From contig JAHJSF010000110.1 in assembly GCA_018830405.1 (NCBI GenBank), positions 1 to 7,684 of the forward strand: DNA of 7,684 nucleotides, in the 5' to 3' direction. Source of the DNA: Nitrospinota bacterium. GTDB taxonomy: Bacteria; Nitrospinota; Nitrospinia; UBA9942; JAHJSF01. Positions 255 through 3,675 of the stretch are shown one piece after another. How positions within the stretch are numbered: position 1 is the stretch's first letter; every line of letters starts with the position of its first letter. The notes under the pieces were generated by a model that saw only the letters and a list, made by a program, of their open reading frames with translations, did not search any database and was not told the DNA's origin. The position numbers and the translations under genes are program-made.

Positions 255-1604
255 CTAATGGACAAGATGTTTTATTAACAGAGTCGAAAGACCGAGAAGG
301 GCAAAAAACCCGAGGCAGTCGGTAAATGTTGTTAGAAATACGGCTGATGAGGCGGCCGGGTCTATCTTAACCTTCTTAAGAATAATAGGGATAAGGACAC
401 CAAAGAGGGTACCTATAAATACGTTAAGAAACATGGTCGCAAATATAATCATTGTGAAAATAATATTTTTCTTCCAAACATAGGCGACTGCAGCGGTAAG
501 GACGCCGGTAATAAGACCGCTTAGGGCGCCTGCCAAGGCCGCATTATAAACCGCCTTCCTCCCATTCCCCGCATCCAATTCACCAAGGGCTATCCCCCTT
601 ATAGTTACAGCCAGCGCCTGAGAACCGGCTATGCCCCCCATTCCGGCTATAATCGGCATAAAGGCAGCCAGTACAACAAATGAACTGATAGCATCCCCAA
701 AATAACCGACTATAGAGGCGGCCATAACCGCCGTAATGAGGTTAAAGACAAGCCAGGGAAATCTCAATTGAACCGATTGCACGGGGGGATCAAATATGTG
801 TTCATCCCTATATATACCGGCTATTTTTAGCATATCCTCTGATGCCTCTTCATCTATAACGTCAACTATGTCGTCAACTAGGATACGTCCTAAAAGACGG
901 TTATCATCATCCACAACCGCGGCCGAGATGATGTCGTACTTCTCAAATATACGGGCAACCTCTTCCTGATCCATATGGACATTAACTGTAACAACACTCT
1001 TGTCCATAAAAGCGGCTATCGGGGTAGTCGGTTTGTGGAGAAGTAGGTTGGCAATAGGGGTTGAACCGACAAGAACACCGTCGGCATTAACAATGTAGAC
1101 ATTATGGATATCGCCCACCTCTCCAATATCTTCCGCTTCGGCTATAAACTTAACGACTACATCCTCAACCAGCATCCCCTCACGGACGGAAAATATCTCG
1201 GTCTGCATAATACCACCCGCAGATTCCGGGTCATATTTCAATATCCTTCTCAACTCTTCCGAATCGTCCTCGTCCAGCTCTTTCAGAAGATTATCGACAT
1301 CCTCATCAGGCAGGTCTCTTATAAGATTGGCAGCATCATCCGAGTTCATCTCCTCAACGATATCGGCCAACTTTTCAGTAGTAATATCTTCGAGGATATA
1401 TTCTCTCGTTTGGTCATCCATCTCAACGATAACCTCGGAGGCCAGGTCGGAATTTAAACGGTTAAATATCTCTTTCTTCTTATCGTCGCTAAGCTGCTCG
1501 ATAATATCGGCAATGTCGGCCGGATGCAGGCTGGAGAATATCTCCTGAGCCGACTCCTTATGGTCATTTATAAATTTTTTAAAATCGTCTATAGTATTTT
1601 CCAT
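255..1604 (-). CDS. mgtE: Magnesium transporter MgtE
   Basis: Inner-membrane Mg2+-selective channel/transporter of the MgtE family, 449 aa from the chosen ATG and thus full length. The order is an acidic helical MgtE-N domain (about residues 3-130), a tandem CBS pair (about 131-255) and a membrane domain of about five helices (about 282-447). Seen in the last part: the loop G-M-G-G-I-A-G-S-Q (321-329), R-G-I-A-L-G-E, and the final helix K-I-D-P...T-T-F-T-D. Its Asp429 corresponds to the conserved pore aspartate that binds Mg2+ in Thermus MgtE. The N and CBS domains are known to sense cytosolic Mg2+ and gate the pore. ATG at 1604 is preferred over in-frame TTG (1610) and GTG (1607) because AGG (1614-1616) sits 9 nt before it. 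An N in the usual GGNAG loop is I here, which I believe is a tolerated variant. The gene appears to be a single-gene unit downstream of pycB. Confidence 0.95.
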   Translation of the reverse strand: MENTIDDFKKFINDHKESAQEIFSSLHPADIADIIEQLSDDKKKEIFNRLNSDLASEVIVEMDDQTREYILEDITTEKLADIVEEMNSDDAANLIRDLPDEDVDNLLKELDEDDSEELRRILKYDPESAGGIMQTEIFSVREGMLVEDVVVKFIAEAEDIGEVGDIHNVYIVNADGVLVGSTPIANLLLHKPTTPIAAFMDKSVVTVNVHMDQEEVARIFEKYDIISAAVVDDDNRLLGRILVDDIVDVIDEEASEDMLKIAGIYRDEHIFDPPVQSVQLRFPWLVFNLITAVMAASIVGYFGDAISSFVVLAAFMPIIAGMGGIAGSQALAVTIRGIALGELDAGNGRKAVYNAALAGALSGLITGVLTAAVAYVWKKNIIFTMIIFATMFLNVFIGTLFGVLIPIILKKVKIDPAASSAVFLTTFTDCLGFFALLGLSTLLIKHLVH

Positions 1605-1630
1605 CACCAAAAACCTAACATTGCCATCAT
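1605..1630 (-). CDS. Possible 8-codon upstream ORF overlapping the mgtE start
   Basis: On the minus strand an ATG at 1630 opens a short frame encoding MMAMLGFW. It stops at TGA (1606-1604), which shares its A with the mgtE ATG at 1604 (TGATG). The frame differs from mgtE. There is no clear Shine-Dalgarno sequence before it, so it may not be translated. If it is, it would couple translation into mgtE. Leader peptides that govern Mg2+ transporters are known elsewhere (mgtL ahead of Salmonella mgtA), but nothing here shows homology. The listed span leaves out the shared stop base. Confidence 0.2.
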
Positions 1631-1751: not shown

Positions 1752-1873
1752 GACAGAGCGACATAAATTTGTATACCTTCGTTTATCCTCGGCTCATCGT
1801 TACGGCGTATGCTTAATACGCCTCACTCCTCGCCTTCGTCGCGACTCAGTCTGCTTTTTTCTGTCGCCCTGTC
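1752..1873. mobile_element. 122-bp MITE-like palindromic element
   Basis: The terminal inverted repeats GACAGAGCGACA (1752-1763) and GACAGGGCGACA (complement of 1862-1873) match at 11 of 12 positions. The two halves (59 and 58 nt) are imperfect inverted copies around a central hairpin, GGCGTAT/ATACGCC (1804-1810 with 1816-1822) with loop GCTTA. No transposase is encoded. The right end lies inside the pycB stop codon (TAG at 1875-1873), so the element abuts the 3' end of that gene. It is probably a dispersed nonautonomous repeat. I cannot see a clear target-site duplication. Confidence 0.65.
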
Positions 1874-3675
1874 TAATAAGGTTCTATAACGAAGATAGGT
1901 TGGTCATACTCAACCGGCTCGCGCTCTTGGACCAAGATATCGATCAAGCGAAACCTGTTTTCAGCCCTTACCTCATGTTTTAACCTCATAGACTCAATAA
2001 AACCAATAACCTGTCCCTTTTCGACAATATCCCCTCTCCCCATAGACTCACCGAAACGGAAGACCCCAACCATGCCTGAACGGACCATGTCTTTCTTCGG
2101 CACAGACCCCTTTTCAGGCTCTTCATCTTCCATTACCGTCTCAGGGTGAGGATTATTATCGGCCACATGGTTCCTCTTTATGGTAACCTTACCGAGATTA
2201 CCCTCCCAGACAAACTCGGTCAGGGCGGTTCCCGAAAGGGTATCGCATATAGAAGACAATTGAGACAACCTATCACTCCCCGCAGAAACAACGGCCGAGG
2301 CGATGGCCGCGCCGGATAATTCTCCCGCCTCTCTCTTTTGGAAGAACTCAACAGCAACATCCGGGAAGAGAGAGTAGGTTATAACATCAAGCTCATCATA
2401 TTTGAATCCCTTCTTGCTCAGGGCCTTCTCCGACTTGGCCAAGACCGGCTCAAGACGATCGGCCGGCCTGGTTGAGACATCAAGCTTCTTTACCCCGGCT
2501 ATCTTCATAAGTTTCGGGTCAATCTCTCCCGGAGGTTTGCCATACAGGCCGCTTAGATAATCCTTTATCTCTCTCGGAATCAGCTTATATCTTTTACCCG
2601 ATATGACATTGAATACCGCCTGTGTTCCGATTATCTGACTCATCGGCGTAACCAGGGGGGGCCAACCCATCTCCTTCCTTATCTTCGGTATCTCAAGCAA
2701 AACATCCTCAAAACGGTCTATGGCATTCTGCTGCTCAAGCTGCATAATCATATTGGAGACCATACCACCGGGGACCTGATGCTCAATAACCGAGACATCA
2801 ATCATGCTCTGCTTCTTTCTCTGTAGTTGGCGCTTCTCTGATATCTTCTCAAAATACTCCGATATCTTATGTATCCTATTAAAATTTATATGACTCATAC
2901 GATCTGTACCTCTAAAAATGGCTACCATAGTCTCAACAGCCGGTTGAGAGGTATAGAGGGCTAAAGGGGCGGCCGCGCAATCTATTATATCCACACCGGC
3001 TTCAACCGCCTTTACATAGGCCGCCGTAGCCATACCGCTGCTTGAGTGGCAGTGGAGCTGCAAGGGGAGTTTTACCTCCGCCTTAAGGGCCAAAACAAGA
3101 TTGTAGGCATCGTAGGGGGTAAGGATGCCCGACATATCCTTTATATTTATACTCGTCGCCCCGGCATTATAGAGCTTCTTGCCGAATTCAATATACTTTT
3201 CAATGGTATGAATTGGGCTTCTGGTATAACAGATTGCCCCTTGGGCTCGTCCCCCATATTTAATAACAAACTCTATCGCCTTCTCAACGTTCCTGATATC
3301 GTTAAGGGCATCAAATATACGGAATATGTCTATTCCATGTTCCAAAGACTTCTGTATAAAAGCCTCAAGAAGGTCGTCAGGATAGTTTTTATAGCCGACT
3401 ATATTCTGCCCCCTCAATAACATCTGGAGGGGTGTTCGAGTCATTTTCTCTTTTATCTTTTTAAGGCGAACCCAAGGGTCTTCATTAAGATAACGGAGGC
3501 AGACATCAAATGTAGCTCCCCCCCAGACTTCTACAGAATGATATCCGACCCTATCAATATCCTCGGCAATAGGCAGGATATCCTCGAGACGCATACGGGT
3601 AGCCCAGAGAGATTGGTGCCCATCCCTTAGCGTGGTGTCTGTAATCTTAATCGGTTTTTTTCTCTTATTTATCAT
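1873..3675 (-). CDS. pycB: Pyruvate carboxylase / oxaloacetate decarboxylase carboxyltransferase subunit, with non-canonical biotinyl domain
   Basis: 600 aa, the usual length for PycB/OadA. Residues 8-300 form the HMGL-like carboxyltransferase barrel: DTTLRDGHQSL (13-23) with metal ligand Asp13, the NIKDMSG segment with the active-site Lys179 (the residue carbamylated in characterised pyruvate carboxylases), and His208/His210 in LHCHSSSG. The conserved PYC_OADA region follows (PGGMVSN 302-308, TPMSQIIGTQA 343-353, up to about 500). An acidic linker (504-525) leads to a biotinyl-type domain (529-598). There the biotin motif reads ESMRLKHEV, so Arg564 (codon AGG, 1986-1984) replaces the acceptor Lys, and glycines usual in BCCP domains (nGxxVeyG) are E/R and D. 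The family moves CO2 between carboxybiotin and pyruvate/oxaloacetate. No biotin carboxylase or decarboxylase membrane subunit is next door, so the direction of reaction is open. ATG at 3675 has AAGGG about 6 nt upstream and its own promoter. Confidence 0.9.
   Translation of the reverse strand: MINKRKKPIKITDTTLRDGHQSLWATRMRLEDILPIAEDIDRVGYHSVEVWGGATFDVCLRYLNEDPWVRLKKIKEKMTRTPLQMLLRGQNIVGYKNYPDDLLEAFIQKSLEHGIDIFRIFDALNDIRNVEKAIEFVIKYGGRAQGAICYTRSPIHTIEKYIEFGKKLYNAGATSINIKDMSGILTPYDAYNLVLALKAEVKLPLQLHCHSSSGMATAAYVKAVEAGVDIIDCAAAPLALYTSQPAVETMVAIFRGTDRMSHINFNRIHKISEYFEKISEKRQLQRKKQSMIDVSVIEHQVPGGMVSNMIMQLEQQNAIDRFEDVLLEIPKIRKEMGWPPLVTPMSQIIGTQAVFNVISGKRYKLIPREIKDYLSGLYGKPPGEIDPKLMKIAGVKKLDVSTRPADRLEPVLAKSEKALSKKGFKYDELDVITYSLFPDVAVEFFQKREAGELSGAAIASAVVSAGSDRLSQLSSICDTLSGTALTEFVWEGNLGKVTIKRNHVADNNPHPETVMEDEEPEKGSVPKKDMVRSGMVGVFRFGESMGRGDIVEKGQVIGFIESMRLKHEVRAENRFRLIDILVQEREPVEYDQPIFVIEPY

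Follow-up and report, generated by a model that had tools for sequence, protein, structure and literature searches.

The two-subunit pyruvate carboxylase of M. flagellatus (PycA/PycB, 5ks8) has its carboxyltransferase and then its BCCP domain on one PycB chain, together with a BT-like domain, an acceptor lysine, and a dedicated PycA (PMC5059739). A mutant with the acceptor lysine changed to alanine is essentially inactive and regains 29% when mixed with an active-site mutant (PMC5059739), indicating that a carrier can serve the active site of another subunit. Fused PycB-AccB proteins with ~44-52% identity to the protein analyzed here occur in Bacillota and Actinomycetota (e.g., Desulfosporosinus and Solincola) and share its architecture. 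Unlike this protein, all those aligned have the acceptor lysine, and unlike in its order, most are directly followed by an AccC-like gene. Transcarboxylase 5S, which has no AccB fusion, uses a carrier on a separate subunit, 1.3S. The carboxyltransferase fold of 5S and OadA (1rqb, 2nx9) is shared with the PycB analyzed here. In plants, the BADC proteins are BCCP-like, lack the biotinylation motif, and participate in BC-BCCP assembly (PMC11926652).

We analyzed a 7,684-nucleotide stretch of DNA (the window) from a Nitrospinota bacterium, which encodes a fused PycB (Table 1). The M. flagellatus enzyme was the best structural match for its carboxyltransferase (39% identity), with the same order of carboxyltransferase and BCCP domain; the window PycB differs in its AccB-type C-terminus and in an arginine at the acceptor position, and just an ACC-linked AccC was found for it. 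Pfam identified HMGL-like, PYC_OADA, and Biotin_lipoyl domains, the last at residues 546-597. The HMGL-like TIM barrel and PYC_OADA were also recovered by NF006761 (744 bits; cutoff, 402) and by fold matches. On balance, we think it probable that this PycB carboxylates pyruvate with carboxybiotin supplied in trans by AccB and AccC and that its own carrier domain is kept for docking.

Table 1. Positions of pycB, its domains and key sites, and its neighbor in the window
Feature	Positions	Strand	Description
pycB	1873..3675	-	600 aa; PycB/OadA/5S-type carboxyltransferase fused to AccB-like C-terminus
Carboxyltransferase + PYC_OADA region	2326..3675	-	Residues 1-450
AccB N-terminal-like segment	2167..2280	-	Residues 466-503; weak profile match, low model confidence
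AccB-type BCCP domain	1876..2094	-	Residues 528-600
Arg564 codon AGG, biotin-acceptor position	1984..1986	-	
Lys566 codon AAA, +2 from acceptor	1978..1980	-	
Site of 6-residue deletion relative to six orthologues, thumb loop	2043..2044	-	Between Ser544 and Met545
mgtE, downstream neighbor of pycB	255..1610	-	Orthology marker; outside the proposed mechanism

Directly after the stop codon of pycB lies an imperfect palindrome of ~120 bp (positions 1753-1872), with a minimum free energy of -41.8 kcal/mol as RNA (z score, -2.9). The genome contains 41 further full or partial matches to it, thereby indicating a dispersed palindromic repeat.

Arginine at the biotin-acceptor position

The acceptor region of the window PycB reads FIE-S-M-R(AGG)-L-K(AAA)-H-E-V. 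The lysine of the E-x-M-K hairpin is absent, and Arg564 stands in its place; the translation of the reading frame, with the codon at 1986-1984, bore out the earlier note, which had pointed to this residue. The note had also taken the change to be real divergence rather than a single-base error and had proposed an alignment with relatives as a check. We examined seven genomes of the order, namely, the window genome (a draft, 87% complete) and six others, with completeness ranging from 73 to 87%. Each of the six other members encodes one full-length PycB orthologue with 57-60% identity, and mgtE lies downstream of pycB in all seven genomes. The orthologues are not uniformly lysine bearing. Two of them likewise have arginine (L005, ETM-R with codon AGA; L006, EAM-R with codon AGG), and the other four (L004 and L007-L009) have lysine encoded by AAG. 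Arginine at the acceptor position is thus found in 3/7 genomes of the order. In the alignment of fused PycBs (n = 68), 65 have lysine and three, those of the window, L005, and L006, have arginine; lysine is kept in all 61 fused relatives aligned from outside the order, and every one of the 23 class-level PycBs read has E[AS]MK. A tree of the carboxyltransferase part places the window PycB on a long branch (0.76). The distribution of arginine and lysine on this tree needs a minimum of three changes, whichever their direction, or of two should L005 and L006 be sister proteins. The biotin lysine is regarded as what defines a BCCP domain, and here it is replaced in three of seven related genomes with the domain and the enzyme kept.

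A sequencing error was ruled out because the arginine recurs with different codons. Three near-invariant columns are also altered in the window domain (Pro534 to Gly, Ile559 to Phe, and Asn567 to His). More broadly, the draft state of the window genome, at 87% completeness, would leave room for an error of sequencing or binning or for a second, biotinylated PycB in the missing part. We regard this as extremely improbable, as arginine is found in two other genera, encoded by different codons, the neighboring gene is mgtE in all seven genomes, and each genome of the order has a single full PycB. Judged from the sequence, biotinylation of the window PycB at the usual site is very probably impossible, in line with the earlier note, and the protein would therefore carry no biotin there; the arginine is both real and recurrent.

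The earlier note had further suggested that biotin might instead be attached to Lys566, two positions further along. In favor of such use, lysine at this +2 position is invariant across the order (7/7), and it is also present in two Bipolaricaulota proteins. However, it coexists with Lys564 in four orthologues and in both Bipolaricaulota proteins. Since the +2 lysine is present where the acceptor lysine is kept, it is not a replacement and does not track the loss. In addition, the structural model places Lys566 past the turn, in the strand of residues 565-570. In BCCP, BirA no longer biotinylates the lysine once it is moved away from its position in the turn. Lys566 as the acceptor was thus unsupported, and we consider it very unlikely.

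AccB-type domain fused to the carboxyltransferase

The earlier note had proposed aligning the carrier domain with PycB/OadA and AccB domains. An origin of the OadA type was rejected because the AccB profile and the folds fit better, and the C-terminus of PycB corresponds to a whole AccB fused to the protein, with an N-terminal half that is weak in the window PycB. In the three orthologues scanned, TIGR00531 (AccB) matched profile positions 4/5-155 of 156 with 97-108 bits, a span that covers both the N-terminal segment and the BCCP domain. In the window PycB, it matched the BCCP half alone, with 46 bits, below the cutoff of 115 bits. For the N-terminal segment, a profile derived from relatives other than the window protein gave a weak score of 11.5 bits for the window PycB, 23-29 bits for the six orthologues, and at most 3.9 bits for OadA-type controls. 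Among 77 genomes of the phylum, an AccB-type C-terminus in PycB was found at clear scores in the order only, and class relatives have OadA-type domains in its place.

The model of the full PycB had a mean pLDDT of 84.7, and the BCCP domain was well predicted, with block means of 75-94 across residues 531-600. The AccB N-terminal-like segment was modeled, at low confidence, as a helix (residues 469-481) and two strands (485-491 and 496-501). Arg564 lies in the modeled turn between strands 556-562 and 565-570, the hairpin tip that is the site of the biotin lysine in BCCP. The best folds for the BCCP domain were those of the E. coli and Arabidopsis BCCPs. Modeled alone, the domain had its closest match in E. 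coli BCCP (1bdo; Z, 13.1; rmsd, 2.1; 74 residues), followed by 4hr7 (Z, 12.9; rmsd, 1.3; 71 residues); the VIA second look spanned model residues 70-144, with the N-terminal segment outside this range.

Several features of the window protein would also fit a slow decay of the domain. Its N-terminal segment is weakly detectable, its thumb loop is shortened by six residues relative to the six orthologues, two of the near-invariant columns are altered (Pro534 to Gly and Asn567 to His), and its branch is long. The fused AccB-like domain could then be a relic without a role that is being lost, with PycB still using AccB and AccC in trans. This reading is plausible but, in our judgment, unlikely, as the length, the fold, and most core residues of the domain are kept at the pLDDT values given above. 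Furthermore, the arginine-bearing orthologues L005 and L006 hold their BCCP domain under purifying selection (dN/dS, ~0.06, at a dS of 2.2, near saturation); this low ratio concerns L005 and L006 and not the window's own domain, for which dS against the orthologues was saturated.

Carboxyltransferase site and partner genes

Asp18, Lys179, His208, His210, and Thr343 are invariant in 68/68 relatives. The earlier note had described an intact site made up of Asp13, Lys179, His208, and His210. The last three residues stood, but Asp13 did not; the aligned transcarboxylase 5S has Glu (ITELVLRD) at this column. The metal ligand is presumably the Asp of the RD-HQS motif, which is Asp18 in the window PycB. 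Purifying selection on the order's carboxyltransferase is strong (dN/dS between L005 and L006, 0.05), and the enzyme appears alive from its intact active-site residues.

PycB could alternatively have ceased to be a biotin-dependent enzyme, acting as a biotin-independent decarboxylase or aldolase-like protein or as a BADC-like regulator that competes for AccC and AccB. The absence of the biotin acceptor is consistent with this, and in plants the BADC proteins, which are related to BCCP but have no biotin lysine, modulate the assembly of ACC (PMC11926652). Nevertheless, none of the active-site residues tested, Thr343 among them, has been lost, and the strong selection on the order's carboxyltransferase also argues against the loss of biotin-dependent activity, which we consider quite unlikely. 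The BADC proteins may be likened to the window domain in that both are BCCPs without the lysine, whereas they are separate proteins of the plastid ACC and the window domain is fused to a carboxyltransferase.

The earlier note had also proposed looking in the same genome for a biotin carboxylase and a free carrier, and both were found. Two Biotin_lipoyl proteins scored over the cutoff, PycB and a stand-alone AccB of 150 aa (EAMKLMNE). This AccB adjoins AccC, the one biotin carboxylase (PF02785) of the genome; a dedicated PycA biotin carboxylase was not found with PF02785 in this 87% complete genome. Two Carboxyl_trans matches are consistent with AccA and AccD, and a BirA-type ligase is encoded. 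Among the seven genomes of the order, one biotin carboxylase was found in six and none in the seventh, AccC adjoins AccB where both were seen, and the three genomes with arginine all have a stand-alone AccB. At 73-87% completeness, a second biotin carboxylase or PycB could conceivably have been missed. A reading of PycB as the OadA of a Na+-pumping oxaloacetate decarboxylase was rejected, as OAD_beta (PF03977) had no match in the seven genomes. The BirA-type ligase of the window genome, L060 (G000:C177), has GKGRGEHIW in its biotin-binding loop versus GRGRLGRRW in the order relative L061.

Because the acceptor lysine is now arginine, PycB probably borrows the biotin carrier of fatty acid synthesis and its partner enzyme. 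The earlier note had named three alternatives, a free carrier acting in trans while the domain serves for docking or structure, the use of Lys566, and a different role for the enzyme; the first was the best supported, with AccB, AccC, and a BirA-type ligase in the same genome. Under supply in trans, PycB, as a carboxyltransferase whose fused AccB is complete but cannot take up biotin, would form a pyruvate carboxylase together with AccC and AccB, two parts of acetyl-CoA carboxylase. AccC would carboxylate the biotin carried by the stand-alone AccB, and the resulting carboxybiotin would reach the active site of PycB from this separate protein. The AccB-like segment of PycB, consisting of the N-terminal helix-hairpin and the BCCP domain with Arg564, would be kept for assembly, holding AccC and/or AccB beside the carboxyltransferase. 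We infer the delivery in trans, the docking role, and pyruvate as the substrate. If the supply in trans is true, the carboxylation of acetyl-CoA and that of pyruvate share one biotin carrier, and PycBs of this kind would wrongly be taken for biotinylated proteins in automated annotation.

A wider and more tentative possibility is that the order has merged its pyruvate carboxylase into acetyl-CoA carboxylase. One module of AccC and holo-AccB would then feed the carboxyltransferases of both enzymes. The AccB attached to PycB would repeatedly have become a nonbiotinylated domain for docking or regulation, a bacterial equivalent of plant BADC in fused form. Such a merger could couple anaplerosis to fatty acid synthesis. 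In the literature searched, no paper was found on a PycB with a fused BCCP that lacks the lysine or on an AccB shared with pyruvate carboxylase, although this absence is not proof; as far as could be found, the lysine-less fused PycB-AccB is a previously undescribed variant within an enzyme type that is already known.

Other arrangements were seen in more distant genomes. Within the class, 48 of the 60 genomes searched (class relatives G007-G059) had no PF02785 match, and nearly all have an OadA-type PycB. Fused PycB-AccB proteins (L151 and L152) are also present in two genomes (G070 and G069) without a PF02785 match, which may reflect incompleteness. In a member of Thermodesulfovibrionales (L126), two pycB genes lie in tandem at 31-1840 and 1843-3196, encoding a 603-aa protein with a BCCP domain and a 451-aa protein without one. 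In a WOR-3 genome (L088:3983-7960), a fused PycB-AccB is followed by another PycB-like gene and a small stand-alone BCCP protein (EAMKMQND).
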